Assembly (NCBI GenBank): GCA_907163375.1 | Contig: CAJQUW010008953.1 | Location: 33,501 to 97,500, forward strand | Source of the DNA: Prostheceraeus crozeri | Lineage: Eukaryota > Platyhelminthes > Polycladida > Euryleptidae | Direction of reading: 5' to 3' | Length of the DNA: 64,000 bases | In this document: piece after piece, positions 43,775 through 64,000 of the stretch | Layout of the letters: each line of letters begins with the position of its first letter | Position numbering within the stretch: the first letter of the stretch is position 1 | The notes under the pieces: model-generated | What the model was told of the DNA's origin: nothing | The model's input: only the letters and a program-made list of their open reading frames with translations | Database searches by the model: none | Translations under genes and position numbers: made by a program

Positions 43775-43780
43775 CATGTT
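43775..43780. repeat. Polinton 2 target-site duplication, left
   Basis: CATGTT, repeated at 61648-61653. Six bases is the Polinton norm. Confidence 0.9.
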
Positions 43781-43969
43781 AGTAGTCAGCAAGTGTGATA
43801 ATTGCGGACACGCGGACGTGGGCACGTGCCACGTGCCACGTGGACACAGGGGAGGGGAGTCTTGTCCGCAAATCACCAAGTCTAGCATTGGCCGTTCTCT
43901 CGTCCAATGACAACTTTGGTGATTCTAGGACACGCGGACACGGAGGAGAGGGCAGGGCAGGGGAGAGAA
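43781..43969 (+). repeat. Polinton 2 left terminal inverted repeat (outer part)
   Basis: Complement of about 61480-61647. Shared blocks in order: ATTGCGGACACGCGGACGTG, GGCACGTG, GGGGAGTCTTGTCCGC, TCTAGCATTGGCC-like, TCGTCCAATGACAACTTT and GGACACGCGGACACGGAGG. The repeat goes on after the nested element at 44746-44796 (GCATCCTCTGAAACATGTTT). Confidence 0.92.
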
Positions 43970-44993: not shown

Positions 44994-44996
44994 TGC

Positions 44997-45004
44997 TATA
45001 TAAG
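44997..45004 (+). promoter_or_regulatory. TATA box of first plus-strand gene
   Basis: TATATAAG, 76 bases before the ATG at 45080, a fitting distance for a start site about 30 bases downstream of the box. Confidence 0.55.
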
Positions 45005-45079
45005 AAGGTGCTCTGACAGGATTTTTCACTCCTCCGTTCACTCAACATTTTGCTTTAGCAGCAACTTCCTTCATTAATA

Positions 45080-45406: not shown

Positions 45407-45408
45407 AA

Positions 45409-45645: not shown

Positions 45646-46046
45646 ATTAGAATTAAAATTAAAATTAAAGGTCAAACAAGTCGATATTATTATCTTGCTC
45701 ATATTCTTTTGTTGGTAATTCCAAGTTGCTCGTCTTTCATTTGCAGATTGAACTCATTTGCACGATATAATTGGATTTCCGGTCTCAGTTTCTCTCTCTC
45801 TCAAACGGCGAAATGAATGTATCTCTGTGCTGTCCTTCGACGTGCTTGAACGTAGCGCATGAACGAGGCCGCCGTCGGAAGCGGATATGTCATTCTGGTC
45901 AGCGAATTTCCGTGATTTTGTGTCGTTGTGGCCTGGTCACACCTTCATTACATGCATGCTATATTTAACATTAAATTTATATTATAACATGTATAAAACA
46001 ACACCGGGCCTCTTGTCAGCCAATTTGGACTTTACATCCAGATGCA
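45646..46046 (+). other. Leader of PolB gene
   Basis: About 400 bases without a convincing gene. It contains ATTAAAATTAAAATTAAAGG near 45655 and a TATA box at 45992-45998. Confidence 0.4.
45992..45998 (+). promoter_or_regulatory. TATA box before PolB region
   Basis: TATAAAA, 49 bases before the ATG at 46047. The area is AT-rich, so chance is not excluded. Confidence 0.45.
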
Positions 46047-46776
46047 ATGAGAGAAATTGCAGTCTGGGCTTTCGAAAATCCGACTGTTACTCGGCTCCCA
46101 GCGCATCTACGTTTTCTTTTGCCGCCATGGCTGCCGTTCGACTCCACTCAAGCGTCAGTAGCAAATGAGCCGGTTCAACAACCGGCAGGTTTTGATCGTT
46201 CAAATTTCAGGCAGCGGCTAGCGGAACTGCTGCAGGGAGGTGCCCAGTTACACCGTGTTTCTCGTGCATTTATCCATCCTCTCCCAACGCCGACAGACTA
46301 TTCTGCATTTTCGTCATCAATAGACAATGGTGCAGCAGTAGTTTATGGAAGCCAGTTACAGGACTAGGACAGACTACCTCCCACCATTTTTGTCATCAAT
46401 AGACAATGGTACAACAGTAGTGTGTGGAAGCCAGTTGCAGGACATGGCGGCGACAGACTACCTCCCAGCATTTTCGTCATCAATAAACAATGGTACAACA
46501 GTAGTGTATGGAAGCCAGTTGCAGGACAGGGTGAGTGTTTATGACGGGAATAATCATCAACAAGAAACGATAATGCTTGATGATGATGATGATAATGAGT
46601 TATCAGGGATCAGATCGAGTAATAGGCGGGCGGGGAATTTGTCGACACTGGGTGAGGGCAATCCTAATTCCTCCAACGAGACTGAATTAAGCAACTCAGA
46701 CTCCTCGGTTGGCGTTTGTGTGTCTCCCGCGCCAGAGAGGCATGGCGCTACACGCGTCGTTGGCAGGAACATCTAG
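46047..46776 (+). pseudogene. Polinton 2 PolB N-terminal extension with repeats
   Basis: It begins MREIAVWAFENPTVTRLP and soon enters three tandem units of about 80 bases (starting 46292, 46368 and 46452) coding for SSIDNGTTVVYGSQLQD-like peptides. The first two units differ by 76 bases, not a multiple of three, so the frame changes at about 46365. An acidic part follows (MLDDDDDNELSG) and a serine/asparagine-rich end. Probably the low-complexity N-terminal part of the DNA polymerase reading frame or a separate gene just before it. Confidence 0.5.
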
Positions 46777-46829
46777 TGGATTTGGACGAGGAGGAAGAGG
46801 AGGAGAAGACTCGGCTAGTTAAAAATACG

Positions 46830-49800
46830 GCAGGAGGATGATTGCTCGGACTGGCTGGAGATAGAAGAAGAAGAAGACAATGAGGAGGCACATAACTGGT
46901 CTGACATAGTAGGGATAGAAGAAGTCAATAATGATTTTTTCTGTCAGGTTTGTGAGACGATGCCGCAGCCAGTGTTTTTTGGTAGAAATCGTCTGATTGA
47001 GCATGATCTTATGCATACAGATCCACATGTAATTTTGGTGGACGACGATGATGTCTCTTTCCGTTTGGCTAGGTGCGCTATACAGGGTCTTGTACGGGAC
47101 TACGGGATTTACACTGGACTAGCTCCACCTTTAATTGAAGCCGCACAGTTTCTCCACTCATACCGCACGCTGTTGGAAACGTTGTTGGCTGTGTTGGGGA
47201 AGAATCATATTGTCAAGGCCAGATTGGTGCTTTTGTGTAGTTACAGACGAACAACTTTGGTGTGGGAGGAGGAGGAGCCCCCAGTTGATGAAGATGGGTA
47301 CCTCTCGTTCTCATTTTGGTCCGCGGCGCCGTTAAATGCAACAATATTTCCGCAATGGCATAAGGAGCATGCTTGTTCCATTTTGAACAAGTTATAAGTA
47401 TTTAACGAGCGAGGCAGCGCTCTCGAATTTGATAAGGTCGTTTTTTTGGGTGTTTCATTGACAGCACTCTCAAGGTGCATCATCCGGCCGCTGTGGCGTG
47501 CCGACAGGTTTGGCATTCATTCTATAGCAGCAGGAATGATAGTGAAGTGGTTGAATAATGGGAAGGCGACGATTGTGTGATAAAGTTTTTGCAGAAGTTA
47601 GACCAGTTGTCGCGGGCACAGCATGTAAAACTCTCTCATATGACTCATCAAAAGATACGGATGCGACCGAAAGGTGAGATTATATTCTTGAGTACCACGC
47701 ATTGCGCCAAATGCAACTTTTCCTTCACTGGCGAAAATGCACGCCGCCGAGTGCGTGACCATTGTCACTCAACAGGCGCATACCGGCCAGCGCTCTGTCC
47801 TGGCTGTAATTTCCGGTTGCGCCAGCGGAGGATGACTCTTCCGGTGATATTTCATAATTTTAAGAATCATGATGCTCATATAATTTTGAAACGAGGAAAG
47901 AAGAAAATGGCTCACTGGGAATGGGACTGTATAGCCCAGACCAAGGAAAAATTCATGAACCTACGCGCAAAAATCCCCGTGGACGAGACGAGTAGCGGTA
48001 AACGGATCTACTTCCTTATTTCGTTTATCGACAGCTATCAGTTTCTATCGTCCTCACTAGCCAAGCTGGCGAGCAATTTAGACAGTCTGCCTATTACCCG
48101 AACTATGCTACGCCACTTTCCTAATGCGAGTGAAGACCTGCTGCGGCGGAAGGGCATTTTTCCGTATATATTCTTATTTTGACTCTTTGATACGACTCCA
48201 GGAAACGTCCCTACCCCCAATAGCAGCATTCAAGTGTGACTTGACCGGAGCCGACTGTTCCGCCGCCGACTACGAACATGCGCAGACCGCATAGTCCAAA
48301 CTCGGCTGTACAACATTTGGGGATTATATGAAACGTTATTTGGAGTTGGACGTTAATTTGCTTGCTAATGTGTTCGAAGCGTTCGGAGAGGTGACGCAGA
48401 AGGAGGATGGTCTTGAACCATCGCAATTTATCAGTCTTCCCTCAATATCATACACGTCAGCATTCAAAATGACTGGGGAGACAATGCATCTTCTCACAGA
48501 GGCTAAGATGTACACTTTCTTCGAGCGCGGACTTCGTGGCGGTTTGACGTACACGAATAAACATTTGGCGACTGCTTGGGATGATACTGTGCTGGGGTAT
48601 GTGGACGAAAATTACCTCTACGGTAGTGCCCTCTGTCAGTATTTGCCACATTCACATTTCGAATGGTTTGGGGGTGCGGAATTGGAGGCACTCGGGCTGA
48701 AAGACAATATCATGGCGCTGCCAGATGACGGAGAGTTGGGCTACGTTTTCGAAGTGGACCTCCACTACCCGAAGCACATTCACGATTTCACTGCTGACTT
48801 ACCGCTAGCTGCCAACAGCGATTGTATTACTTATCAACAGTTTCGCCTCTTCATGGTAGAGTTGTACACTCAGTTGAATGGCCAGTCTGCCAAATTCACA
48901 CCGTCACGTAAACTCTTGCAAACCCAATGCGACAAAGAAGCCTACATTGCTCACTTTGTCACTCTGAAATTTTATCTGACCATGGGGCTGGAATTACGGC
49001 GAACCAGACGAGTAATTCGCTTCACCCAAAAACCCTTCCTCAAACCCTACATGATGTATAACAGCCGCCGACGTCAAGAGGTAAAGAAAACGTTTGAAAA
49101 ATATTTCTATCAGTTGAAGAACAACAGTCTGTTCGGCAAAACTATGGAGGATGTTCGCAAACGAATCAGCTATAAGCTGAAAATGACCCCGGAGGCTGTC
49201 AAAAAGGCCATAGTCTCCCCTCTTCTATGGAGCAGGGAAATCATAGATGATAATTTAGTCGGCATCCAAATGCTGAGACCTACAGTAATGTTGAACAAAC
49301 CCATCTTTATAGGCCAAGCTGTACTGGACCATTCAAAGTTGGAAATGCATCGATTGTGCTATTACACTTTGAAAACCACCCCACTGATACGACAGTTAAA
49401 TTTGGTGGCGGGGGACACAGACAGCTTCTTTCTCGAGATGAAAGTTGACGTTGGCGTGGGTAGGATGCTTTGTTTGCCGAGTGGGCTGACAAATTAGACA
49501 GCAGTAACTACAAGCCGGACCATCCGCTGTTCAGCAACACTAATAAAGCACAGCTACTGTGCTCCAAAGATGAGACCAGAGGACAGGCCATTGATGAGTT
49601 TGTTTGCCTACGCCCCAAAATGTACAGTATTAAATTGAAGGCGACAACGGATTCGATTAAACGGGCCAAGGGAATCGGACGAAGTTGTGTTAATACTTTC
49701 AAGCACGCCGACTATCGTAAGGCGTATGAAGAAGCGCGGGTGAAGCATGTTCACATGACAATACTAAAATCAGTAAACCACAAAGTGCAGACAGTGACAC

Positions 49801-49943
49801 TGCGGACACCAGCATTATCAGCTTGGGAAGATAAGAGATATTGGTTATCTGCAAACAAGTCATTGCCCTACGGTCACTACCGGACACTACAGGAGGAAGA
49901 GGGAGGAGGACGAGGAGCTTTTTCCCCTGTGTCAACAGAATGA
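46830..49943 (+). pseudogene. polB: Polinton 2 protein-primed DNA polymerase B (frameshifted)
   Basis: This is the replicase of the element. In order: an acidic lead and a conserved N-terminal part to 47397 (TDPHVILVDDDDVSFRLAR, KARLVLLCSYRR), then CAKCNFSFTGENARRRVRDH (zinc-ribbon-like) and LPVIFHNFKNHDAHIIL (exonuclease). The next pieces are KRYLELDVNLLANVFEAF, motif A YVDENYLYGSALCQYLP, motif B KNNSLFGKTMEDVRKR and motif C LVAGDTDSFFLEM. The C-terminal part follows from 49470 and closes near YGHYRT. The long middle piece 48328-49497 is open. Frame changes lie near 47400, 47580, 48185 and 49480. Active-site Asp residues are kept. Confidence 0.93.
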
Positions 49944-50037
49944 CCGCTTGTCTCTCTCCAATCCAATCACGGCAGCGTATTCCACTATTTAAATGGGGGA
50001 TCATGGTTTCCATTCTGTCATTAACAGCCATTACTAG

Positions 50038-50601
50038 CATGCAAACAACCGCATCTGCGCCAATGGCAGAGGCGAACAGGGAGAAGAAGAAGAAGCTGAC
50101 TCAACAGCGGACCTCATTTCAACAACGACGACGACAAAACCGCCGCAACTATGCATCCAGCTTCTGTCATCGTGTGCGAAACTACCAACACACGGCAGTT
50201 ATCACGCCGCTGGATTGGATTCATATGCGGCAGAGGGGAAGACTATTGAGCCCGGCGATAATGGTCTCGTTTCATTGGACGTTTCGATCATATTGTCGCC
50301 CGGCTGTTATGGACATATCACGCCTCGCTCCGGTTTATCTCTTCAACACAAACTAATGGTTGGCGCCGGTGTGATTGACCGCGACTATACTGGCCCGCTG
50401 AGCGTCCTGCTATTCAATTGTGGTAAGGAAGCGTACACCGCTAACATTGGTGACCGAATTGCCCAGTTGATTTGTAAGCGCTGCGAACATGTGATTGTAG
50501 AAGGGACTGAAGTGCTAACTGTGTCGTCAGATGGGGATGACACTGCGGAAGTTGCTGATCATGATGATGTAATAATGGCAATGCGAAGCGTGGTAAACTG
50601 A
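50038..50601 (+). CDS. Polinton 2 dUTPase-like protein
   Basis: This is a trimeric-type dUTPase, which splits dUTP to dUMP and keeps uracil out of DNA. Motifs: AAGLDSYAAE (motif 1), PRSGLSLQHK (motif 2), GAGVIDRDYTGPL (motif 3, with the catalytic Asp) and GDRIAQLIC (motif 4). The glycine-rich motif 5 at the C-terminus is not seen; the end is acidic instead. The frame is open from 50038 but has no ATG before the core, so the start is unsure. It may begin in another frame at ATG 50003 after a TATTTAAA box (49986). Follows PolB on the same strand; a role in replication is fitting. Confidence 0.85.
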   Translation, partial: HANNRICANGRGEQGEEEEADSTADLISTTTTTKPPQLCIQLLSSCAKLPTHGSYHAAGLDSYAAEGKTIEPGDNGLVSLDVSIILSPGCYGHITPRSGLSLQHKLMVGAGVIDRDYTGPLSVLLFNCGKEAYTANIGDRIAQLICKRCEHVIVEGTEVLTVSSDGDDTAEVADHDDVIMAMRSVVN

Positions 50602-50628
50602 GTTTCGGTTCAACGGGTGTGTAAATAA

Positions 50629-50640
50629 CAATAATAAAGA
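50629..50640 (+). terminator. Poly(A) signal after dUTPase
   Basis: AATAATAAAG lies some 30 bases after the dUTPase stop. Confidence 0.4.
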
Positions 50641-50712
50641 GCTGTGTGCTGTTTTCATTTCTGTGTTTTGCTTTTAAGCAAAGTTTCCGGGGCGTTAGTT
50701 TTACATTAACAA

Positions 50713-52206
50713 ATGAGTTTCTATCACGTACTGCCCAACAATGCCGCGCCAGAGACCTATCCAAAGAACTGCGCCTCCTCCTATATTACATCGATGAAAT
50801 TGTCTTATCAGCTAATTGGTGAATGTAAGGTGGCGGTAGGGAATATCATCTACCAAAGTTGCATCTATACTTTCACGCCAGAAGATTCCATCACTGTGGT
50901 GGAGTCCCAGCCTGCTTCTCAAGTTCTACTTAAAAAGCCAAATCAAACGTGGACGAAGGTGAATTTGGAACAGATCGTTAAGGAAGCGGGGGCGAATGAT
51001 GACGCATTTTATCAGAAACTCATTGCTAAATTGAACACTATCATCCGGGGGATAGCGGTGATAGAGTTTGTCAATAAAGAGACGCGCCGCATCAAGTACC
51101 GGTTCACGGATCATCATTTCGTCCTCCTCATCGACAAGCATCTCGCTACCATTCTGAAATTGCATGACGTGCTCACTCCTCTGGACAATTATCCATCCAA
51201 TGATGAGAAGTTCACCATGGTGGGTAAAGATGCCGCCTACAAGGCGGGTTACATTATGGCGATACGCCTTAGAGTGCCTGGTCACTGGCTTGTGGCAAAA
51301 CCGGCAAATACACTCTATTCATCGCTTGAAACCCTGGTCGCTGCTTTTGAGAAATGTGGCAGTGATACACTGCCATATGGCATGTCTAGTCAACTTGTTA
51401 GCAGTGCCAGGTTGAGTGGCAACAAGAACGCTGGCACGAAACTTACTTTGGAGCGCGTTTCCGCCGGCAGGAAACCGACAAATTTATTCCTATTCAACAA
51501 ATCATTCAATGAAGCTGCCCAAATGCGACAAAACGGACTGTTTGCACTAGCGAAAAATCCATTCGGCGCCACATTCGATTTGAAGAGCTCGTTCAAGGAC
51601 GAATGGTCAGTTCAAGTGTATCCACTACAACCACGCGTTGATGCGGGCGAGATGGAGCAGCGGACAGTAGAAGTCATCAAATTGGAGGCGGTGCTATACC
51701 ATAGTATAGGAAATGCGTGCAAATATTTGACGAAGACAGTGAGTCAGTCAACAGTGCACTTCGTGCCGGCGGCAGGAGACCGTGTCAGTCTGTCCGTCTT
51801 CTCGCCCAATGTAACAGTCACCTTGAGTAATGATCCACGTGAAATCTTGGCCTTTGATCAGACCCCTTTCAAGGGGAAAATTACGGTCACATCTTCCGGC
51901 GTCATGTCATTATCTCGTCGGATCAAATTCCTCTATCTCTACTCCAAGTTTGGTGAGTACGTCCGGATTGGTGATACACCCGCGCCCGCACTAGCTGTGC
52001 TGCCACACAATACAAAGGTATGCCCCAATATGGTGGAACGACCCTTCAAAAATCCTATGTACATCAAGCTGATCACCCCGGTAGTGCATAATATCCACAT
52101 AAAAATTTATGATGGTGTTGGCAAACTGATCCCATTCCACGCGGGTGCGGTGACCAACGTGCGACTGCATTTCCGGCGGCGTGAACCAGCTGGCGCTATG
52201 CAATAA
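50713..52206 (+). CDS. Polinton 2 virion-type protein, 497 aa (intact)
   Basis: Uninterrupted frame from ATG 50713, the longest intact one in the element. The N-terminus (MSFYHVLPNNAAPETYPKN, then SSYITSMKL) resembles that of the next gene (LPSNAS, KYPSNSPSQYTTAF). The middle is beta-rich with no membrane span. The C-terminus (PMYIKLITPVVHNIHIKIYD, LIPFHAGAVTNVRLHFRRR) follows the pattern P-F-x-x-G-x-V-x-x-x-L-H-F-R-R that I associate with a conserved Polinton structural protein. Minor capsid, penton- or fibre-like role is inferred; there is no direct proof. Confidence 0.7.
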   Translation: MSFYHVLPNNAAPETYPKNCASSYITSMKLSYQLIGECKVAVGNIIYQSCIYTFTPEDSITVVESQPASQVLLKKPNQTWTKVNLEQIVKEAGANDDAFYQKLIAKLNTIIRGIAVIEFVNKETRRIKYRFTDHHFVLLIDKHLATILKLHDVLTPLDNYPSNDEKFTMVGKDAAYKAGYIMAIRLRVPGHWLVAKPANTLYSSLETLVAAFEKCGSDTLPYGMSSQLVSSARLSGNKNAGTKLTLERVSAGRKPTNLFLFNKSFNEAAQMRQNGLFALAKNPFGATFDLKSSFKDEWSVQVYPLQPRVDAGEMEQRTVEVIKLEAVLYHSIGNACKYLTKTVSQSTVHFVPAAGDRVSLSVFSPNVTVTLSNDPREILAFDQTPFKGKITVTSSGVMSLSRRIKFLYLYSKFGEYVRIGDTPAPALAVLPHNTKVCPNMVERPFKNPMYIKLITPVVHNIHIKIYDGVGKLIPFHAGAVTNVRLHFRRREPAGAMQ

Positions 52207-52235
52207 TGGAAATTGGCCGAATTATATTGCTACTG

Positions 52236-53793
52236 ATGCCCGACTCATTCAAATTGTACCTACCAAGTAATGCTTCGGCGTAGAAGTATCCAAGTAACAG
52301 TCCCTCGCAGTACACAACTGCGTTCACTGACCCCATCCAGATTGACTCTAATGGCGGCGCCGGCTGGGAAGTCAGTGTAGAGTCTATCTTCTATGACAGT
52401 GACATTGGTGACCAAAAGGAAGAGGGGAGCATCACTATTACCTGGGTTGAGAAACAGCTGAAATTAGTCAATGACATTTACCCTGTGAAGTATAAGGTGC
52501 TGGCCGGCCAGAAGTGGGACTACAGCTGGCACCGCTTCCCCTACATCCCGAAGAAGAATATCGCTGGAGAAATGGAGCGCGGGCTGCGCTCCTTCCACGA
52601 CTTGGTGATGGAGGCAGGGCCGGCGGCCTTCCAGTGGAAGGCGACCTCTGAAAACGATACTCTGCAACATACCACCCAGTTGGATAGTCTGGTTATACGC
52701 CTCTCAGTTAAATTAGCGACACTACTTGGCTACTTATATTTTGTGCATGTGTTGCGGGAGCGTCTCCCATGGTTGACGCGGCCGCTGAAGACGAAGGAAA
52801 AACTGTCCGCGGAGGACTTTCGCTGTGTGATATTTGACCGCAATGTGGTCAAACGTGATAGACGCGTGATCTTGAAAGAACGCCATCTGGAGCCCTATAC
52901 CATTGAACAAATGGTAAATGTGTGGAATGAGAAGATGCGGTCACAGTCGCGCGCGAAAATTGCTAATGCAAATTCATCATCACTAATGATGTCAATGACT
53001 CTGCCTTGGTTCTGAGCGACGGCCTTCGACACGCTGTCCAGCATTTCGAAACATTGCTCTCCAGCGGCGAGTTTTGGGCGAACTACTCGTACAGGAACCC
53101 GGCTAATTATGTGGAAACAAGGCCCATCCCTGCTGAATGGTATGTGGATATTTACTTGACAGAGCTGGAGAAGACCACCGTCCTGGTGGAACAAAAGAAA
53201 AAATTGAGCTCAAGCCACGCCAATTCGCCACAGTGGGGGAATGTTTGAAAGAGATGGAGAGCAAGAGCAACGAGTGGCTTAAAAAGGTGGGAGCTGCGGG
53301 AAATTTGAAGATGGAGCTAACTAACCATTTCACACAATTGACCATCCCACAGGACATTACCATTGACCTCACCCAGAATCTCTGTGCTATGCTCGGTTTT
53401 ACATCAGGGTTGAAGGAGCATTTTGCTGAAGGTGAACACACTGGCGATTTCATTGCCGCAAGACTGGATCAGCAGGAATTGGAACTTTTGCCAACAACTG
53501 ACATCATTGACCAAGTGTCCGTCGGCGCCACTAAAGAACAGCTACTGCAACATTTTGTCCACCGATCAGAACGCGACTACGGCATTGTAGAGCGCCGGTT
53601 TCACCCCATCACTTATCTACCAGTGGCCCCCAGCGTATCCACCATATCACCATCCGTCTACACAACACACGGCGTCGCCCTATCACAATTGCTGACTCCA
53701 CCACCCTCGTCCTACTCCATTTCCGGCGCCGCCACATATAATAATAATAATAACGAGAAGGGGAAAACAGCGTGGTTATTATTATTATTATGA
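52236..53793 (+). pseudogene. Polinton 2 conserved virion-type protein (PX-like, broken)
   Basis: Starts MPDSFKLYLPSNAS with an in-frame ATG 30 bases upstream as alternative. WEVSVESIFY follows, as in the PX-type proteins of other Polintons (short beta start, then W-E-V-x-L-x-E-I-x-Y). Later come SFHDLVMEAG, LSVKLATLLGYLYFV and, in further frames, LTELEKTTVLVEQKKK, ITIDLTQNLCAMLGF and GVALSQLL. The repeated L-A-x-L-L-G/L-C-A-M-L-G-F pattern suggests internal duplication. A TAG near 52266 and frame changes near 53010 and 53200 break it. Probably a virion component. Confidence 0.65.
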
Positions 53794-53843
53794 GAGCATC
53801 CTTCACCCCTCATTGCGCTCATTTCTACGCCAATATCATCAAT

Positions 53844-54431
53844 ATGAGTGTGACTAGCGGCCGGATTGTCAATACTATGTACGAACCAGATCTCAACTGC
53901 GAATTCAATCTCACCGCCCTCCATCAATGTCTCGGCGGAAGGTTGTACTGCGGGCGGCCGCAGATGCTCATAACGGCAGTGCGCGTGGGAAAAGGGCTAA
54001 AGAGGCGAAATTTACAAATCTTTCGTCGCGGCAAAGTGCAAATCATGGGCCGGGTTTCTGATTCCTACGTGCTCTCTATGATCTCTGCGCTAAAAGACCA
54101 ACTAATTAAGCACAGGTTGTTGTGGTTGCCCCTGCAGCCAGTGAGGATAACGAGGAAGAAAATGGTGATATGTGCCCAACTTTCAACTACTCTTCGGCTG
54201 TCTAACCTCCGTCACTCGTCCGATGAGGTTTTCTACGAAAGTGAACTCTTCCCGGCCATCCAAATACAGAAATGGCTTCCTATTCATGTAGCCGTTTTCA
54301 AAACCGGCAAGTGCATCATTACCGGTCTGACTACCGGCGAACAGTTGCGGGAAGTGTTGGAAAAACTCTTGAACTATCTCAAACAGAATAATCTTTTAAA
54401 CCGTCCTCAAGATTCTGCTATACAAAAATAA
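53844..54431 (+). CDS. TATA-binding-protein-like (TBP-like) protein
   Basis: Intact, 195 residues from the ATG at 53844 (two upstream in-frame ATGs exist), the size of a bare TBP core. Two repeats are seen. The first (about 5-90) has RIVNT, then NLQIFRRGKVQIMG. The second (about 105-190) has FYESELFPAIQIQ then VAVFKTGKCIITG. Both F-x-x-G-K-x-x-x-x-G signatures of the TBP saddle are present. The four DNA-bending phenylalanines of TBP correspond here to Met41, Phe60, Phe136 and Phe152, so three of four are kept. It would bind promoter DNA in the nucleus and recruit polymerase. Placed between virion genes and protease. Not a copied host gene: it is very diverged and has no intron. Confidence 0.85.
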   Translation: MSVTSGRIVNTMYEPDLNCEFNLTALHQCLGGRLYCGRPQMLITAVRVGKGLKRRNLQIFRRGKVQIMGRVSDSYVLSMISALKDQLIKHRLLWLPLQPVRITRKKMVICAQLSTTLRLSNLRHSSDEVFYESELFPAIQIQKWLPIHVAVFKTGKCIITGLTTGEQLREVLEKLLNYLKQNNLLNRPQDSAIQK

Positions 54432-54470
54432 ATAAAAAACACGTTATATTTCATCACTTGATGTTTTATT
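54427..54470. terminator. Convergent poly(A) signals
   Basis: AATAAA on the plus strand at 54427-54436 for the TBP-like gene and TTTATT (minus AATAAA) at 54465-54470 for the protease gene. Under 45 bases separate the two stop codons. Confidence 0.65.
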
Positions 54471-54949
54471 CACCGTTCGTTCAAAGAGGTAAAATAAAAG
54501 TGGCGCATGCGCGCTTCATTCAGATTAACATTTGTGGGTGAGAAACTGCTTGAGTAGAAGGAGCGGAAAGAGTCATAGTTTCTCCGCTTCAACACATGAT
54601 ATAGTACGTATACACCACACCAGGAGGACAGTGGGTGTTGGTAGGCATGCGGGTTAGTGGCCCATTGTCGACAGTAGGTATTCATGAAGCGGATGACATT
54701 GTTCCTAGGAGCCATTGCCAGAGAGTCAAATACTTCACCAATGCGCTCAGCATTAATGTAAATTGATTTCCAATGTTGGCCACCTAAATTGTGGCTCTGG
54801 GTGTTGAAAATGAGCAACACTGGTAGCTGGCGCAAAGTTTTGAGGGCAAGTAAGTCTCGCGGGTATACACCATGAAAAGCTCGTTTGCACTCCGCATCAC
54901 CATGCCGCTGGATCAGCTGTTCCAGTCGGGTTTCTGATAGCCAGCTCAT
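54470..54949 (-). CDS. Polinton 2 adenain-like cysteine protease
   Basis: Intact 159-residue protein. FHGVYPRDLL, LLIFNTQSHNLGGQHWKSI with His59, VFDSLA with Asp75, YQHP with Gln104 and SSWCGVYVLYHVL with Cys111 make up the catalytic set of the adenovirus protease/Ulp1 fold. In Polintons this enzyme is thought to cleave capsid precursors. It lies just downstream of the capsid gene on the same strand. The short N-terminal region and overall length are normal for the family. Confidence 0.93.
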   Translation of the reverse strand: MSWLSETRLEQLIQRHGDAECKRAFHGVYPRDLLALKTLRQLPVLLIFNTQSHNLGGQHWKSIYINAERIGEVFDSLAMAPRNNVIRFMNTYCRQWATNPHAYQHPLSSWCGVYVLYHVLKRRNYDSFRSFYSSSFSPTNVNLNEARMRHFYFTSLNER

Positions 54950-54979
54950 AATAAAAATAATAATTGGGCTTCCTTCTCC

Positions 54980-56252
54980 TCAGCGCGTATACTCCGTTTG
55001 AATGTCGCGTGTTTGGGTCACCTCGAGGTAGGAGTCAAAGACGGCGTAAAGCAACACTGTGATTGTGGCGGGGAGTGCTTTTCGGAAGGTCAGATCGAGG
55101 CGTAGGTTCTTCGTACTGATGGCGTGGCGGTGAATGGCGCCGACGTCATTATCCGCAGTCAGATCAAATGCGTAGATGGTATAGCCATTAGCGAATTCCT
55201 CCCTTGTCAATCCATTTGTGTCATCAGTGTTGTAATAGTGGAAAACTTGCATTGTATTGACATAACTCCGGGTGTACTGCTGGGCGCTACCAATATCCGG
55301 TGTGAACGGAAAACCGGGGCGCCACGGCGCAGCGCAATTTCCTGGAGGTCGAAATGTTGGAAGTTGAACGGGTTTTTGGCGTATGACCCAGTGTACGCCT
55401 CATTCTCCACCAGCTCTACTAGTAGCAATTTTGGTACCTGTAGGGGATAGAGCCTGTCCTGGACGAAGCTGAACTGGCCTGCGGGAATCGAGAAGTTAGT
55501 GATCTTTGAGTGGTTCAGTGGATAGTGAGCGTTCCGTTTCAGCAGGCCATGCGTATGCCCGTTGATGACTGCCGGATTCATCTCCTCCCGGCGCACCTCC
55601 AGAACCACTTTGTCAAAAACAATCTTGTAGTCCGGGGCTGTCTCAAACGAGTTGAGTGCAAACGTCGGTTAGCCGGGGTCAAGCGGATACGCATGTCCGT
55701 CGGGGAGATGAGATAGCGCGCCTGGCGCAGGAAGTCCAGAAAGAGCGGCCCATACAGCTCGTGCACCCGACTGGCATCGGTCCACTTCATTCGCTCCAGA
55801 AAGCCTTTATTCGCAGCAACATCAAACTTACCCGCCTCATCTCTCTGCCAACCCAAAGGGCGCATGTGGGTATCCTGGGCCGCCGGATACATCTGCATAA
55901 CGGTGGGGAAGAAGCCGAGATAGGGATAGCATTGTTGGCCGCCCTCCACTTGCACTTCGCCCAACGTCAATGTGACATCTTGGAAGAGGGTGGCAACGGC
56001 CAGATTGTTCACTGCAGTCTTTTCCCCCGCTTTGAAGGCCGCTCCGTCCGGTTTGGTGATTTTGAATTTGACATAAATATGGATGTTATTGCTGTCCACA
56101 TAGTCTTCCGTGTTTCCCGGCACATAGAACTCAATTGGCCTGCCATCTTCAATATTGGAGATCGGTAAATATTCTTGATTGCGTGAGGTGATGATGTCTG
56201 TCTGAACAGGGTGCTCATCAAAGATGCACAGAGCCGAATTCTTCACTTCCAT
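54980..56252 (-). pseudogene. Polinton 2 double-jelly-roll major capsid protein (frameshifted)
   Basis: Starts at ATG 56252. First jelly roll: GRPIEFYVPGNTEDYVDSNN, IYVKFKIT, LFQDVTLTLGEVQVEGG, CYPYLGFFPTVMQMY. A frame change follows near 55620. Second half: NHSKITNFSIPAGQ, LYPLQVPKLLLVELV, GSYAKNPFNFQHFDL, then a change near 55250. The end (GYTIYAFDLTAD, NLRLDLTFRKALPATITVLL, FDSYLEVTQTRD) stops at 54980. This is the standard Polinton capsid layout, about 420 codons. It builds the icosahedral shell. Two single-base changes break an otherwise well-kept gene. Confidence 0.92.
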
Positions 56253-56253
56253 C

Positions 56254-56631
56254 TCAAAAATTTCCTAGCTTCCGTCTCTTGCCTCGCGGAGACTTTGCCA
56301 CCCTAGAAGGATTCTTCCGTTTGCGTAGAGAGGGGCCGGCGGGGGCGGCGGTATCGGCTATGGTGCCAAGTGCGTCTCTACCAAGTTGACGGAGTCGCTT
56401 CAAACCCTGTCGTTTCGCCACCTCACGTACACTTTGGCCTTCCGCCACTCCGCTCGCCACATCGGCGAAACCCAGAGCCTGCTTACCAACCTTACCCAAG
56501 AGGGGCATGGCCATTTTAGCAATTGAACCAAGTATGCCACCGCCACGCATCCGTCGCGATCCAGAAAACACTGGGTATGCGCAGGCGCCCACATAGGACG
56601 GCTGTGAGTAGAAAGCTGCTGTTCGGTTCAT
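56254..56631 (-). CDS. Polinton 2 pVI-like/minor virion protein
   Basis: Intact 125 residues. N-terminal FSGSRRMRGGGILGSIAKMA then PLLGKVGKQALGFADVASGV, an amphipathic-helix-like region following a gly-arg patch, and a very basic end (RKRKNPSRVAK, RGKRRKLGNF). Its stop sits next to the capsid gene start. A basic minor protein with a G-x-G patch and a V-A-x-x-x-x-G pattern beside the capsid gene is common in Polintons and has been compared to adenovirus core or cement proteins; the exact job is unknown. An earlier signal-type sequence is absent. Confidence 0.7.
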   Translation of the reverse strand: MNRTAAFYSQPSYVGACAYPVFSGSRRMRGGGILGSIAKMAMPLLGKVGKQALGFADVASGVAEGQSVREVAKRQGLKRLRQLGRDALGTIADTAAPAGPSLRKRKNPSRVAKSPRGKRRKLGNF

Positions 56632-56676
56632 TAATGGCGGGGACTATTCCATCTTCAGCCAGCCCTCCTTTTTAGC

Positions 56677-57819
56677 TTAAGACCGTTGACCTACCGCCAA
56701 TAGATCGCGCTGGCGCAACCAACTGTTCATTGTGGACGGATAGCCCAGCCATTTGACGAGCACCCAGCGTTCCCCATTCTGTTGCCGGCGCTGGAGCACG
56801 CGTTCCACCATGAATGGGTCATCATCAACGGTATAGAGAATTGGCTGGATCTCGCGCCGGTAGAAGCTGCCCTCAATCAACGCGCCATTATAGTCTTTCA
56901 GCCGGTAGACGGTGGGCCGGTGTTTCGCATTCACCTCATTCACGATGAATACCTCCTCCGTCCAATTAGCAAGATAGCCTTCAGCGAAAACACTCTTCAC
57001 TTTGGAGATACGCACTTTATCACCAACTTTGACATCATCGAGGTCTTTGGGCGGGTGTTTCTGCCACTGATTTAACTCACGCACCTCATCCACGTTCGAG
57101 GAGTCAATCTCCGCCGGACGGCGACCACCCAACATTCGGTGCTTTGAATGATTGTAGGCATGCACTGCGTCATCAAGAACATGCGTCCATACATTGGTGA
57201 AATTAGCGGTGAACTATTTCCACAATCGCTCCTTTAACGTCCGATTGAAGCGTTCCACCACGCCCGCTTTGTAGGCGCTCTTGACACTGAACAGCTCAAT
57301 ACCGTGCTCCGCAAATAATGCGCGCACTCACCTGTTCTCAAATTCTTTCCCGTTCCTTCTGCACTCGCTTTCATCAGTAAGGAAAATGTTACGAAAGGCA
57401 GCAGCCACCTCCGCCCTGCGCTTCGTCTTTAGTGGTCGGACCCACGCGTAGCGCGTGAGAAGATCAATGACAGTTAGCATGAAATTGTAACAACGTTTAC
57501 GGCGGGCTAACTCTGTTACATCTGTCAAATCCGCCTGCCACTGTTCATCAATATCATGAACAACATACCGGCGCATTGGATAGCCTCGCCGCCGAGCTGG
57601 AGCGTGTAAGGTGTAGGTGGGTTGGGATTTGAGCTATTTCCGGACTGTCCTCTCCGATAATTTCGCCTCACCCGCCAACTTCTTGATAGAGGCGTAACCG
57701 GCAGGGTGGCGCGCGTCATAATAGATGGCTGTCAAACGGTTTGCCGTTTTATCGCCAACTGCAGGCTGTCGCTGCCGCCGTCGCCCGCGCGCCCTTCCTC
57801 CTCCTCCTCTCTGGGGCAT
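56677..57819 (-). pseudogene. Polinton 2 integrase with chromodomain (broken)
   Basis: N-terminal part: LTAIYYDARHPAGYASIKKL then ERTVRK and a TAG stop. Catalytic part: EQWQADLTDVTEL with the first Asp, YNFMLTVIDLLTRYAWV, GKEFENR, then FSVKSAYKAGVVERFNRTLK with the catalytic Glu. HAYNHSKHRMLGGRRPAEI follows, then an SH3-like DDVKVGDKVRISK and a C-terminal chromodomain (VERVLQRRQQNGERWVLVKW, LGYPSTMNSW). Breaks: TAG near 57635, TGA near 57330, TAG near 57215 and at least one frame change. Chromodomains in integrases can steer insertion to certain chromatin. The start is uncertain because it overlaps the next frame upstream. Confidence 0.9.
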
Positions 57820-58782
57820 TCCTCCTCCGCCTCCTCCTCCCCCTCAATGCCGTCAACTTTGTCCTCTGTCGCAGTACTCTCGCAGCACGCACTCACAAAG
57901 TTGACGTTTACATCCACCACTGGCTCGTCGTTTTTTCCAACCGCTCCTGCCGCCGCACTTGCACAACAAGTAAACTGAGACCGGCAACAGTTTCTATCCA
58001 TCAAGGTCAAACGCCAAACACCTGTCCGCTACTATCCTCGCCGTCACTGAAAGACTTGAGATAATCGCTACTCCGATAACGGTGGCTTTTCACAAGTGGT
58101 CGCTTCTTTGAAGTTGGGGGTATTTTGAAAAAGGTGTCTGCTGCTGCTGTCGCTGACGTTGTTGCTTCCTTCTTCTTTTGCCCTACTGACCGTGCCGCTT
58201 TCGCAGTTAATTTTCGGGCGCTTTCAATTGTGCGGGTGCGCGGTCGTGACTGCCTAGTGGCAGCGGGCGGCCCCAATTGTGCCAATTCATCTACAGTGTT
58301 CCGGTTCAGCATCATGCGCGGGATACTTCGATCTTTCATCCCCTCAAGAAACTCCGTCCAACCCGTGGAGTGAATTGCTTGCGCCGGTCGCGAACGGCGT
58401 GTTGAATAAGGTCTTCTGTTCGCGAGCCAAGTATTGGCATCGTGCCCTCCAGCAACTCACCACGCTCGTTGAATTGCATGGAGGATGAGGCCAGTTGGTT
58501 GCATAGCGCCAATTCCCGGTTCCGGTAGGGTGTCGGAGTGCCGAGGGAAATGTCATCACGAAGTTTCTCCTTCCACCTTTTAATATCCTCCAGTAGAGCA
58601 CCCTGTTTGACCATCTGTTTGCGGGGATCGGCATGCTGGGCGGGGTCGGCAGCCATGCGCGTGTAATCACCATGCAACTGATGGAGTTGCTGCTGAGCTG
58701 GTTGGCGCACGCGGCTGAAGCCCACCATTTGATTGTACTCTTCCTCCGGTATGGCCACTAACCGCTGGAATGTCGTAGCCAT
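57740..58782 (-). pseudogene. Polinton 2 conserved protein (frameshifted)
   Basis: Starts MATTFQRLVAIPEEEYNQM at 58782; helical, glutamine-rich (QQQLHQLHGDYTRM, RKQMVKQGALLEDIKRWKEK). A frame change near 58340 leads to MKDRSIPRMMLNRNTVDEL and a basic stretch (ESARKLTAKAARSVGQKKKE). A further change near 58010 gives an acidic tail of Glu runs. A start of the form L-V-x-I-P/V-P and a later N-I-P-R-x-x-x-x-N are, from memory, features of a conserved but unassigned Polinton protein. Its last part overlaps the integrase start on paper; one of the two ends is probably wrong. Confidence 0.5.
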
Positions 58783-58808
58783 GGGGATATGCTAAAGAAT
58801 TTTATAAA

Positions 58809-59464
58809 TCAGCATAGGAGAGGCAGGGTTTCGGTTGAATAGGTTGCCCGGAAGTGGTATGCTTCAGTGCACTCTTGCGTGAAATCACAGAATAGGTAGC
58901 CGTGGGGCTTGGTCGTAGCCGCCTCAAACACTTCAATTAACGCTTTGGATTTGCGAGGGCAATCTGCCGAGCCAGAAATTCGACTTGGCTTTTGTCACGC
59001 GGATTCTTGAATAGAATATGGTAGTGGGTGTTCAAACTGCGTGTGCTCGATTCTTTGCCAGTAGGGAAGAGGTTTTGAGTAATGAAAATAATAAAACACG
59101 GCTTGTGATGGGCCACCTTGGTGAACATAGCGGTGACATCAGACGAAGCGCGTGTCTCATCCAGCAAATCATCCAGTACCACCAAATCGTAGGGTTGTAT
59201 TTCGCTAGTGTGAATGAGGTCCGCTTTGGCAATAACAGCACGCTCTTGGAACTCTTATTGGAGGGCGGGCTAATAGATGCCATAGCATCATATGACCCGG
59301 TTGATGGGACACTCGAACAATTCAGAGCGATGGTCAAGTATTTGCAGCGTGAGGTATGTCTTGCCACTATGAGATGGGCCGGCTATGCACATAGTACGAT
59401 CACATTTCAGGCGTAGATCCATTTCTGTCCCCCACCGTTGTTGGCCGTCACCGCCGCTTAGCAT
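58809..59464 (-). pseudogene. Polinton 2 packaging ATPase (broken)
   Basis: Starts at ATG 59464 (MLSGGDGQQRWGTEMDL). P-loop GPSHSGKTYLTLQIL follows at once, then a TGA at the place of a usual Trp (before CYGIY) and a TAA soon after. Walker B LVVLDDLLDE, the sensor-like FIIFITQNLF and HYHILFKNPRDKSQVEFLAR come next in one frame. After a change near 58940 the end is HGYLFCDFTQECTEAYHF. FtsK/HerA type, as in all Polintons. The upstream neighbour ends six bases away, so the two are probably co-transcribed. Confidence 0.9.
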
Positions 59465-59469
59465 AACAA

Positions 59470-59850
59470 CTACTTGCCCGTCAAGCCGCTGACAAGACTA
59501 CCAACTGCGCTAGCAATCACGGGCAGTATAGCGGAAAAGAACCCATCCTTTTGTTTCAACAGACGTCGTTGACTGGCCACACTAATGCCCGGTTTCACCA
59601 ACCGACGGAGGGTTTTTTGGTGAGCAGACACTTTCCGTTTCGCCTGCGGCGAGAGCGTTTTACGGTGGCGAAGCTGGCGCACTGATGATGCCACTTTCCG
59701 GATGAATACATCTTTTGCATTGCTCACCGCTTCTCGTTGCTCTGGGGGGTCATCCGCCGCATTCTTGCTAAAGCCTTCATGAAGGTCTCATTGCTCATTC
59801 CCCGACAGCGTTTTACACTCTTTCGGCGCGGCATTGAGATTGTCAAACAT
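59470..59850 (-). pseudogene. Polinton 2 basic protein with hydrophobic C-terminus
   Basis: I start it at ATG 59850 (MFDNLNAAPKECK), in frame with the longer downstream part; one TGA follows at about 59790. The protein is basic (VRQLRHRKTLSPQAKRKV, RRLVKPG) and closes with LLKQKDGFFSAILPVIASAV and GSLVSGLTGK. A basic body with a short hydrophobic, glycine-rich end occurs in many invertebrate Polintons next to the ATPase. It may sit inside the virion or act on membranes. Confidence 0.55.
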
Positions 59851-59879
59851 AAAACAATGATGGAGGATAGAATAAACCA

Positions 59880-60290
59880 CTAGGCGGCCATATCCGGGCC
59901 AGCACTATCCATGACAGCACGCTGCAGAAAAACACGCTAGCCACACCCAGAACGAAACAAATAACCGTCGTTTCCTCCGTTCTGCATGGTGCAACACTTC
60001 AGGCTCATCAACCAGGCCCGGCGCGGGTGTAATTTGGGTCACAGTACTTTGGTTCACACCAGAGAGTAAGCAATCCCCCGGAGCGACGCACAAAGTCGAT
60101 GCAAGCATCCAAAGCTTCAGCAAAACGAGGCAGCCACTGATAGTCTGCATACCAACTGAGCAGCAGATAAATGAAGTCGTCAGTACTATCATATGTCAGC
60201 AAATTAAACAGGATAGTTGGGTAGGTTGGGCAGGACACTAGCGTGAATATGAGAAAATTTTGGAATTAGAGCCGGCTGCCACTGTTGCTG
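59880..60290 (-). pseudogene. Polinton 2 unknown protein with C-terminal membrane segment
   Basis: The part at 60238-60008 reads PTYPTILFNLLTYDSTDDF, YLLLSWYADYQWLPRFAEAL, then CEPKYCDPN. A frame change leads to RRKRRLFVSFWVWLACFSAA at about 59905-59960, a basic patch followed by a membrane span. No ATG was found for the first part, so the start is unknown. No family recognised. Confidence 0.4.
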
Positions 60291-60397
60291 CTGTCGCTCA
60301 AGTGGACTAGGATACTGTGCAGTTTATGAAAAAAAAAAAACAGTAACGTCGACAATGACGCCGAATGAGAGTCCGCCAAAGGTAGCCGCGCTGCTTC

Positions 60398-60907
60398 TCA
60401 CCCCTCGGCGTCGTCGTCGGCATTATAACGGCCAGGTACGGCTTTACAAACGCTGATCTGGATATGGATGTGTTTGATTTGGCGTATGCGAAGGGAACTA
60501 CCGCGGGCATGAAACTCGGCAATACGACTAGCTATTTTCGCCATGTGACGATCGTAAAAGTCTTGCGCGGCCAGTTGATGCACTAGCTCCGAGCCATACG
60601 ATCCATGATGATAAGTCTCCACACCCATCACCACATCGCAGTCCGTCAGTCGCCCGTATTCACATTGGGCGACCAAACGCGCCTTGATGCGGTAAGCGAG
60701 ATAGTGAGCGCATTATTGATGGAAAAAAGTGGAAGTCTTCCTGTTGATCTCGTCCACATCAGTTTGAAAAGCAGAGAAATTGATAACATAATCCACTACC
60801 ACTCCACAGAGTGCACTCTTGTGCACTACAAGTTGGCATTGATTACTTTCATCAGTTGCCCTAAATATCTCCGCCGGAGCTACCCGTCGCCTACTCGTCG
60901 TCATCAT
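60398..60907 (-). pseudogene. Polinton 2 unknown protein, right end
   Basis: I start it at the double ATG at 60907 (MMTTSRRRVAPAEIF). After two stops near 60715 the reading goes on in frame as KARLVAQCEYGRLTDCDVVM, LVHQLAAQDFYDRHM, RIRQIKHIHIQISVCKAVPG. The KARLV..C.Y.R segment also occurs in the PolB N-terminal part (near 47215). Divergent from the gene at 61050, sharing a possible TATA box. Function unknown. Confidence 0.45.
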
Positions 60908-60988
60908 TAACAAACTAGGATGTGTGTCTTCCAGCTTGATTACACAATGTAGTACTGCATTCAAACTGACATAGGCGACGACAATGCA

Positions 60989-60997
60989 TATATAAAA
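60989..60997. promoter_or_regulatory. Possible bidirectional TATA box
   Basis: TATATAAAA lies 52 bases before ATG 61050 on the plus strand. Its palindromic core TATATA also lies about 80 bases before the minus-strand ATG at 60907. Confidence 0.5.
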
Positions 60998-61049
60998 CAG
61001 CACGCTGCCACATAACAGTCATTCACAGCACACTTTCCGCCCAACAAAC

Positions 61050-61322
61050 ATGGCTCATTTAGCAATCAATATTGAAGAAAATATAGGTGCTGGAAAAGAA
61101 CAGCACCACGCATATGCTACGAGCGCGTCCTGCAGCGGAAGTCTGCTAATGAACTGCAATCCAGCGAATTTACTTTGGAATGGCTTGAATCGTTGGACGA
61201 GCTACATGAAGCTTGGCTGGCCGCAAATCCCTACATCATTGACGGAGGAAAAGCCCCGGAGCAAGTTTTGAAGACTGCAATAAACTTGATTGAAACCATT
61301 GTTAGTCAACATAAGGACTAAT
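61050..61322 (+). pseudogene. Polinton 2 small protein, unknown (frameshifted)
   Basis: Starts MAHLAINIEENIGAGKEQ. After a shift near 61100 the better reading is YERVLQRKSANELQSSEFTL, EWLESLDELHEAWLAANPYI, then VLKTAINLIETIVSQHKD, ending with TAA at 61322. Helical and acidic. Followed by an AATAAA at 61365. No family recognised. Confidence 0.45.
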
Positions 61323-61364
61323 GTGTTTGTTAGTTTGTGTGTGTATGGCAGATGATATAATAAT

Positions 61365-61370
61365 AATAAA
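61365..61370 (+). terminator. Poly(A) signal of the rightmost gene
   Basis: AATAAA 43 bases after the stop at 61322. Confidence 0.45.
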
Positions 61371-61436
61371 ACTCTCTCTCAATATCACTCGCATGCGACT
61401 TTCACGTTAAAGTTGAATTGAGGAGGGAAGGAAGGA

Positions 61437-61647
61437 AGGGCAAAAATGAAAATTTGGGAATGGCCGGAAAAAACATTTTTCAGAGGACATGTCCCCTCCC
61501 TCCGTGTCCGCGTGTCCTGGAATCACAAAAGTTGTCATTGGACGAGAGAGAACGGCCAATGCTAGGCTTTGCGATTGGCGGACAAGACTCCCCACGTGCC
61601 ACGTGCCCACGTCCGCGTGTCCGCAATTATCACACTTGCTGACTACT
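61437..61647 (-). repeat. Polinton 2 right terminal inverted repeat
   Basis: Complement of 43781-43969 plus 44746-44796, ending CACTTGCTGACTACT. It lacks the nested element that splits the left repeat. Confidence 0.92.
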
Positions 61648-61653
61648 CATGTT
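61648..61653. repeat. Polinton 2 target-site duplication, right
   Basis: CATGTT, same as 43775-43780. Host flank resumes here. Confidence 0.9.
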
Positions 61654-61699: not shown

Positions 61700-61779
61700 C
61701 CTCCTTTATTAAAAATATTCATTAAATTAATAATTAAAATAAAAATATAATAAAAAAATAATTATATAATTAAAAAAAA

Positions 61780-61814
<35 letters not shown>

Positions 61815-64000
61815 AAAAAAAAAAGAAAAAAAAAAAATGAAATTAAAAATTAAATAAATAGATAAATTAAAAAAACTTAATTATTACCAAATAAAAAAAA
61901 AATTAAAAATAATTACTTTAAAAAAAATATTAAAAATTAACAGACTAAAAATCTTTAAATAATTATCAAAATATTAATTAAAATAAAAATTAAAAAATAA
62001 ATTAAAATTTAAGATTAAAAAATAAAAATTAAATATAAAAAAAAAACAAAAAAAAAATAATTAAAAAAAAAAATTAAAAAATAAAAAAAAAAAAAAATTA
62101 ATTTAAAAAAAAAAAAATAATAATAAATTAAAAATTAAAAAAAAAAAAAAAATTTAAAAAAATAAATAAATAAAATTAAAATTATAAAAAAAATTTAAAA
62201 AAAAAAAATAACCTTAAAATAAAAAATAAAAATTAATAAAAAAATTAAAAATATTAATATAAAAAAAATTAAAAAAAAAAATTAATTAAAATTAAAAAAT
62301 TTATTTAAATAAATAAAAAAATAAATTAAAAAATATAAAATTATAAATTAAAAAAAAAAATTAAAAAAAAAAAAAAAAATAAACTTAAAAATTAAAAAAA
62401 AAAAAAAAATTAAAAATAAAAAAAAAAAAAAATTAAATAAAATAAATTAAAAAAAATACTTAAAAATTTAAATAAAAAAAATTAAAAAATAAAATTAATA
62501 AAAAAAAAATTAATTAAAAAAAAAAAAAATATAATAAAAAAAAAAAAAATAAAATTAATAAAAAAAAAAAATAAAATAAAATTAAAAAAAAAAAAAAAAA
62601 TTAAATATTAATTAAAATTAAATAAAAAAAATAAAATAAAAAAAAAAATAAATTTATATTAAATAAATAAATAAAAAAAATATTTTAAAAAATTATTTAA
62701 AAAAAAAAAAAAATTAAAGGGCCTAAAAAAAAAAAAAAATAAAAAAATAATAAAAATTAAAATTATTTAAAAAAAATTAAAAAAATTATAAAAAAAAAAA
62801 ATAAAAATAATTAAAAAAAATTATTAAATTTAAAATTAAAAAAAAAATAAATAAAAAAAAATTAAAATTAAAAAAAAATAATTAAAAAATAAAAAATTAA
62901 AATATTATTAAAAAATAAAAAAAATAAAAAATAAATTATTAAAAAAAAAATAAATTAAACTAAAAAATAAATTAAAATTAAATATAAATAATTTAAAATT
63001 AAAAAAAATTTTTAAATTATAAAAAAAATTAAATTAATTTTAAAAAAATATTTTTTAATCTTTAAATAAAAAAATTTTTTAAATAAAAAAAAAATTTTTA
63101 ACGAATTTTTAAAATTTACCTTACACCCTTAACAAAAAAAAATAAAAACCCTTAATCTTTAAATAACCCCCCCTTAAATAAAAAAATTAAAATTCGTTAA
63201 ATAATTAAAAAAAATTAATTTTACAAAAAAACTTAAATTTAAAAATAAATTATAAAAATTATTAAAAAAAATTAAAAAAAAATTACTTAAAATTAATAAA
63301 AAATAAAATTTAAAAGGTGTAAATATTAATAAATCTTTAAATTAAATTACATTTAAATTATTAAAAAAAAAATTTAAAAAATAATCTTAATTTACAAATT
63401 TAAAAAAACTTAATTAAAAATACCAAAAAAAAAAAAATTAAAAATATTAATTAAATTAAAATATTCTTAATAAATAAAATTAATAAAATAAAATAATTAA
63501 AAATAAACTTTAAAAATTAAAAAAAAAAATTATAATAAAATTTTAAAATATTGCTATTAAAATAAAAATAAAAAATTAATTATTTTAATTTAAATAATTT
63601 ATTAAAATTAATTTATTAAAAATAAAATTTAAATTAAAATTATTAAAAATTTTAAAATTAAATTAAATTAATATTTAATAAAAAATTAATAAATTATTTT
63701 AAAAATAATTTTATTAAAATTAACTAAAAATATATTTAAAAAATTAAAAATAAAAAATAAAAAAATAAACAAAAATTAAAAAAATAAACCATAAAAAAAA
63801 AATTATTATAAAATTAAATAAAAATAAATTATTAAAAACTTTAAATTAAAAATTAAAAAATTAAATAAAATATTATTATAAAAAATTAAAAAAAAATTAA
63901 TAATTAATAGAAAAAAAAAACTTAAAAATTAAAAAAAATAAAAAAAATATAAAAAAAATAATTATAAAATTTAAATTTTTAAATAATTATAAACAATTTA
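61700..64000. other. A-rich low-complexity tail, probable assembly artefact
   Basis: Over 2 kb of A runs broken by T, with almost no G and only rare C, and a strong excess of A over T. No repeat period, gene or transposon is visible. It looks like poorly resolved long-read sequence or a low-complexity array that failed to polish. A few GGG- and CCC-containing scraps (62715, 63160) are the only exceptions. Confidence 0.7.

Follow-up and report, generated by a model that had tools for sequence, protein, structure and literature searches.

The analysed window, a 64,000-nucleotide stretch of a Prostheceraeus crozeri contig, contains a Polinton-type element of 17,867 bases, whose bounds (43781-61647) follow from two terminal inverted repeat (TIR) arms and a 6-bp target-site duplication. 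Between the arms lie pieces of a family-B DNA polymerase, a dUTPase, integrase pieces, several candidate genes and a TATA-binding protein (TBP) gene (Table 1). The initial annotation had placed this TBP gene inside a Polinton, and the location holds: the gene sits within the TIR-bounded element, which has CATGTT on both flanks.

Table 1. Features of the Polinton-type element, with positions counted from the first base of the window
Feature	Positions	Strand	Evidence or remark
Left target-site duplication CATGTT	43775..43780	.	identical to right flank
Left terminal inverted repeat	43781..43952	+	begins AGTAGTCAGC; 83% over 174 columns against right arm
Family-B DNA polymerase piece with endonuclease VII-like domain	47577..48182	+	PF02945 8.5e-08, PF03175 1.6e-06
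Family-B DNA polymerase piece	48328..49497	+	PF03175 3.5e-05 (below curated cut-off); 49% to the second family's 860-aa polymerase
Polymerase C-terminal piece, other frame	49470..49943	+	49-66% to the second family's polymerase; no polymerase Pfam match
dUTPase	50215..50601	+	PF00692 6.2e-26
TTTAAGC-AAGTTT block, candidate promoter	50672..50692	+	upstream of 497-aa gene; inferred
497-aa gene	50713..52206	+	retained in related copies; no Pfam match
176-aa gene	52485..53015	+	ORF, compared with related copies
218-aa gene	53137..53793	+	immediately upstream of TBP
TATA-type block site	53788..53799	+	~56 nt upstream of TBP start
TBP gene	53844..54431	+	195 aa; profile and residue comparisons
Protease-like gene, convergent with TBP	54470..54949	-	PF02902 E 0.11, below cut-off; synteny
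Candidate major capsid protein, C-terminal piece, frame broken	55207..55608	-	synteny; no Pfam match
Candidate major capsid protein, N-terminal piece	55578..56252	-	synteny
Basic glycine-rich protein, pX-like by eye	56254..56631	-	synteny
Integrase C-terminal part with chromodomain	56677..57165	-	PF00385 5.4e-07
Integrase core piece	57328..57633	-	PF00665 7.2e-04, below curated cut-off
148-aa gene	58336..58782	-	TATAAAAT shortly upstream
Candidate packaging-ATPase piece	58937..59254	-	Walker-B-like LVVLDDL by eye; no Pfam match
Right terminal inverted repeat	61494..61647	-	pairs with left arm
Right target-site duplication CATGTT	61648..61653	.	identical to left flank

The protease, capsid and ATPase labels are candidate assignments that combine weak or absent profile matches with resemblance. 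Such resemblance is also why the pieces at 55207-56252 are taken to be a major capsid protein; the N-terminal piece has no match in Pfam, NCBIfam, PHROG or PDB. A PDB search with the protease-like gene returned nothing, and none of the 497-aa gene's four PDB matches is better than E 0.11. Pfam gives no TFIIB match in any of the 31 element ORFs of at least 100 aa or in five stop-to-stop pieces; the broken genes could hide one. In this copy, breaks interrupt the polymerase and the candidate capsid frames, and the TBP frame is open. Because of these broken frames, together with departures at a near-invariant TBP site and in the TATA-type block, the window copy is probably dead as an element.

Beside the right end of the element, 61700-64000 is an extremely AT-rich region of low complexity (GC 1-5% in 62001-64000). 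Long open BEL/Pao-type retrotransposon frames occupy 29911-35525 (PF03564, PF05380, PF18701), and the stretches 7631-8311, 10024-11424 and 40057-40806 hold a DDE_3 transposase, a reverse transcriptase and a weak match to C-type lectin that falls slightly short of its cut-off.

A TBP homologue inside the element

Translation of 53844-54431 on the forward strand gives 195 residues and then a stop, with zero internal stops; upstream, the open frame extends a further 24 codons, up to a GTG. A Pfam scan finds a significant match to the TBP profile PF00352 (E 8.4e-15; 54.8 bits against a curated cut-off of 22.9) in two stretches, which, together with full-length alignments, reveal two pseudo-symmetric repeats. 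The intact 195-residue TBP layout that had been proposed from the letters alone is thus confirmed, as are its two F-x-x-G-K signatures, present as FRRGK and FKTGK, and the FYESELFP block. The significant profile match also goes against one of the grounds for rejection set by the initial annotation, the lack of such a match.

Comparison with more distant proteins points the same way. A 34-member family profile matches the archaeal TBP structure 2z8u over positions 4-176 of 180 (E 1.3e-20), and hhalign reaches 98.9% over 168 columns when run against three canonical TBPs. The window TBP retrieves 20 distinct PDB sequences with phmmer, 19 of them named as TBP or TFIID and one as 'ECU04_1440 protein'. 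NCBIfam archaeal-type TBP models align with residues 8-180 at E 1.5e-10, under their curated cut-offs, and a PHROGs scan returns a single weak, unrelated match (E 0.009).

Recurrence in the genome and in a second element family

Similar TBP genes recur in the same 2.05-Gb genome. From 10,865 first-look candidates of a TBP search, the best 150 were scored, all at E 3.3e-30 or better; with the best scores taken first, the scored list favours intact copies. Among these 150, window-like TBPs account for 32 rows (30 copies, including the window) with 52-100% identity, many of them truncated or carrying stops. Row counts in this section (32, 118 and 116) were tallied by hand from the scored table. 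Neighbouring genes were compared in 15 other window-like copies, seven in one set (L002-L008) and eight in a more distant one (L023-L030). The protease-like gene adjoins TBP in 7/7 and 8/8 of these, or 15/15 overall, which argues against a stray capture. The 218-aa gene lies upstream of TBP in 6/7 and 5/8, and the capsid candidate is present in 7/8 of the more distant set.

The initial annotation had suggested searching related elements for the same gene next to the protease, and had counted its absence from all of them as grounds for rejection. In the related copies examined, all from this one genome, TBP is present and keeps that neighbour. These results support the window gene as a TBP homologue that belongs to a Polinton-type element and is common to related elements, and TBP is a regular part of these elements, not an accident.

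A further 118 of the best 150 scored rows form a second, young family with near-uniform TBP frames of ~180 aa that are 40-42% identical to the window TBP (39% in one pair compared separately); 116 of the 118 have no stop. Since several of these rows are paired on one contig, they count rows and not elements. Every one of eight second-family loci (L009-L016) contains a family-B polymerase match in the same locus as TBP, and in one of them the polymerase frame spans 860 aa and shares 49% identity with the window polymerase piece. Searches of these loci and six neighbouring stretches (L017-L022) with the window's protease, capsid candidate, pX-like, integrase and dUTPase pieces gave no match at E 1e-3. 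With polymerase and TBP matched and the other window genes unmatched, the second family appears to be a different element that has polymerase and TBP in common with the window element, unless those other genes have diverged beyond recognition. Its loci, L009-L022, come from contigs C10790, C11162, C9124, C2643, C6222, C7042, C7511 and C4198 of G000. Near-perfect fold-backs, with arms of 1.1-4.6 kb at 99-100%, occur in three of four loci checked (L011, L012, L013) and represent either products of replication or artefacts of assembly. Near the second family's polymerase, L018:1-618 (-) holds a C2H2 zinc-finger ORF piece (PF00096, 2.6e-10).

Substitution patterns were compared in both groups. In the young family, the sum of dN over the sum of dS is 0.32 across 28 pairs of eight copies (single pairs 0.11-0.96), which indicates purifying selection on TBP at the protein level; eight of 11 frames were used, the second halves of fold-back loci being omitted. 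Old copies give dN/dS values of 0.24-1.25 (eight segments from six copies), a range that omits L005 (dN 0.48, ratio 1.09) because an indel shifts the frame of its segment. The many intact young-family frames within this 2-Gb genome also offer natural variants for comparison.

Beyond this genome, a single-sequence search with the window TBP finds one relative, and a two-sequence profile finds 107. All 107 carry PF00352; they derive from public genome and metagenome assemblies and are known as proteins only, on contigs of up to 20 kb. When 111 family members were placed in a tree with three canonical TBPs, the family stood apart from the latter, joined by a long stem (2.57, support 0.88). In this tree the window TBP, itself a long tip (1.09), groups with five database proteins (support 0.87), while the second-family TBP groups with eight others (support 0.92), including P0064, which is nearly identical to it. 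Both groups together make one 17-member clade (support 0.99), so the TBPs of the two element families could have been inherited from a common source.

Contigs were also searched for complete loci. Scans of viral contigs turned up no confirmed locus, whether the query was P0001 (the window TBP), TBP alignments A1 and A2 or two polymerase alignments; genome contigs gave no locus with A2 and one 3.9-kb contig with a polymerase alignment. Phage records gave one match at E 1, and none for the polymerase piece. When all 36 TBP contigs of at least 4 kb were set against the best 120 of 3839 polymerase matches, two pairs coincided in contig size (10686 and 16847 bases), the 10686-base pair having different sources for its TBP and polymerase sides. 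Two or more coincidences arose by chance in 290 of 5000 jittered sets, which makes equal size weak evidence. P0176, a polymerase relative from a 17-kb contig, carries the label of a Pseudomonadota MAG protein in its source and is perhaps a misbinned Polinton.

Residue conservation and candidate promoters

Residue counts refer to 111 aligned members, comprising 108 proteins including P0001 and three young genomic copies, with old genomic copies excluded. We take F60, F136, F152 and the first-repeat stirrup site to be the DNA-intercalating phenylalanine positions. The first three are invariant (111/111), in agreement with the earlier count of three of the four DNA-bending phenylalanines, and the canonical set is incomplete at the fourth: the stirrup position aligns with P39 of a GRP motif in the window TBP and is Pro in 105 of the 107 sequences with a letter there, inside G-R-P-[EQ]-M. 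The missing Phe sets the family apart from canonical TBP, not from the Pfam profile.

The second repeat retains its canonical residues, with Asn in 109/110, Val in all 110 sequences with a letter and Thr in 110/111. The first repeat has Asn in 92/92, with Met replacing Val in 94 of 99 letters and Leu replacing Thr in 104/111 (Met in the window copy), and it has gained a conserved Arg and Gln. The lost phenylalanine and the divergent first repeat could weaken DNA bending. TFIIB is contacted by two acidic positions in the C-terminal lobe of TBP, according to PMC7221094. Our own mapping through the YExELFP motif assigns these contacts to E132 and E134, and the acidic pair is Glu-Glu in 109 of the 111 members.

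Among 15 old genomic copies, 11 of the 14 that have a letter at F60 keep it; F136 is kept in 12/15, E132 in 14/15 and E134 in 11/15, losses such as decay would bring. One near-invariant position of the family, presumably a DNA contact, is altered in the window copy, which may therefore be drifting despite its open frame.

Upstream regions contain several shared boxes. Ten of the 13 aligned rows have a TATAA ~56 nt ahead of the TBP start, and in several of them its surroundings are dissimilar; this TATA-type block departs in the window copy and L003, and it reads TATAT in L030. In the young family, TATAAAAG occurs 43 nt upstream of the TBP start in five of eight copies, within an overlapping ORF, and three of eight have no box, while the family's 199-aa gene has TATAAAAC at -22 in 4/4. 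The window's 148-aa gene is preceded by TATAAAAT in 2/2. A block of another type, TTTAAGC-AAGTTT, is recognisable before the 497-aa gene in all five copies compared, though bases are changed in one of them; pairwise, their upstream regions share 58-81% identity. In these loci the searched TATA words have a background of ~0.12 per 101 bases, and no box is shared within five further upstream sets. Because the copies are related, conservation of a box alone is no proof of function, and host TBP could equally be the user of these TATA boxes.

Possible function and relation to known systems

We favour, at a probability of roughly 0.6, the reading that the Polinton-borne TBP selects promoters for its own element in the nucleus, using host TFIIB and RNA polymerase II. 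The second repeat would contact the minor groove in the canonical way, through Asn, Val, two Phe and Thr, and hold TFIIB with its two acids. The first repeat would be a remodelled surface, its intercalating Phe lost to the near-invariant GRP motif, its Val mostly Met and its Thr mostly Leu. Such a saddle would produce the usual DNA kink at one end and read the other half-site differently, and it would bring host TFIIB and RNA polymerase II to the promoters of the element. In the simplest order, TBP would be an early gene behind a TATA-type box and would then switch on later genes. We infer DNA binding, altered specificity, TFIIB recruitment and an early/late order for the element TBP. An element that directs its own transcription in this way would fit the retained TFIIB-contact residues and DNA-contact repeat, and the kept acids, combined with the absence of a TFIIB match in the scanned element ORFs, are the main reason to favour work with host TFIIB.

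Rival readings assign the gene other roles. As an inhibitor or decoy, the protein would sequester host TFIIB or TATA boxes and dampen host transcription or silencing, in the manner of a TBP-related factor; a squelching factor could look alike, with TFIIB contacts retained and first-repeat DNA contacts altered. A pure decoy need not keep the second-repeat DNA contacts and three phenylalanines, yet nearly all 111 members do, and we regard this role as unlikely. The fold could instead have been reused outside transcription, for example to bend the terminal repeats as the element replicates, integrates or is packaged. TBP does lie near the DNA polymerase in the second family, whose loci match the window TBP and polymerase and not its capsid candidate, protease or integrase pieces (E 1e-3). 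However, such a role offers no obvious reason for both TFIIB-contact glutamates to persist in 109 of 111 members, and it too seems improbable.

To our knowledge, every eukaryotic host has TBP genes, a point in favour of a recent chance capture of a host gene that is roleless in the element. The window TBP is 21% identical to the human TBP core and 25% and 21% identical to two archaeal TBPs, against 36-38% for three family members. Its family occupies a long branch apart from the canonical three, which are human and archaeal comparators and not the host's own TBP; the gene keeps the same place in 15/15 copies, and TBP occurs in two element families. Host capture was therefore set aside on identity, tree and synteny, and we give it very little credence.

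Returning to the promoter-selection reading, a wider version is tentative and, in our judgement, somewhat more apt to be wrong than right. It holds that this Polinton lineage carries the smallest self-contained promoter selector of a eukaryotic DNA virus, a TBP with a rewritten half-site that relies on host TFIIB and RNA polymerase II, with TATAA and TTTAAGC-AAGTTT acting as an early/late switch. We know of no smaller self-contained promoter-selection system among eukaryotic DNA viruses. The genes described here are a real, conserved TBP family of Polinton-type elements, new as far as can be searched, and the proposed mechanism appears well-founded. A TBP recurring through a lineage of ~18-kb elements leads to predictions of a promoter code, of TFIIB as the host partner and of an early/late order.

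Polintons make a 6-bp target duplication and measure 15-20 kb, and the window element agrees on both counts. It also resembles them, as characterised in PMC8097293, in its TIRs, family-B polymerase, putative integrase with chromodomain and two opposed gene blocks. Unlike the core gene list given there, which has no TBP, the window lineage carries TBP and also a dUTPase. Adintoviruses are defined, in PMC11071296, by an OTU-like domain on the polymerase N terminus and a BLAST-recognisable hexon. Among the openly licensed literature searched, no listed title or abstract opening mentions a TBP in a Polinton.

Several larger viruses offer parallels for the protein. Nimaviruses have a TBP, wsv303 (PMC10871703), and mirusviruses have one in 59% of genomes (PMC10132985); the likeness lies in a TBP carried by an integrating or large eukaryotic virus, although their genomes are much larger than the window element. 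TBP also occurs in mirusvirus-like elements (PMC10675990). The TBPs of large DNA viruses discussed in PMC7221094 are likewise two-lobed, with DNA-contact phenylalanines, in a virus-like double-stranded DNA genome. As reported there, one TFIIB-contact acid is conserved in only ~40% of viral TBPs, and almost all viruses with a TBP-like sequence, poxviruses excepted, have a TFIIB-like protein. In contrast, the window family keeps the acids, its element is much smaller, and Pfam scans of that element matched no TFIIB-like gene to make up a TBP-TFIIB pair of its own. On the wider, tentative version of the promoter-selection reading, this would be the opposite design to that of large viruses encoding TBP and TFIIB together.

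The TBP mimic ORF24 of KSHV, as set out in PMC12529657, is a viral protein with TBP-like phenylalanines that picks out late promoters for use by host RNA polymerase II. It resembles the window TBP in these phenylalanines, but ORF24 has counterparts of all four and has lost the TFIIB-contact acids, whereas the window family has three and has kept the acids. The Polinton-borne TBP would then represent an independent case, with opposite partner logic, of the viral takeover of RNA polymerase II.
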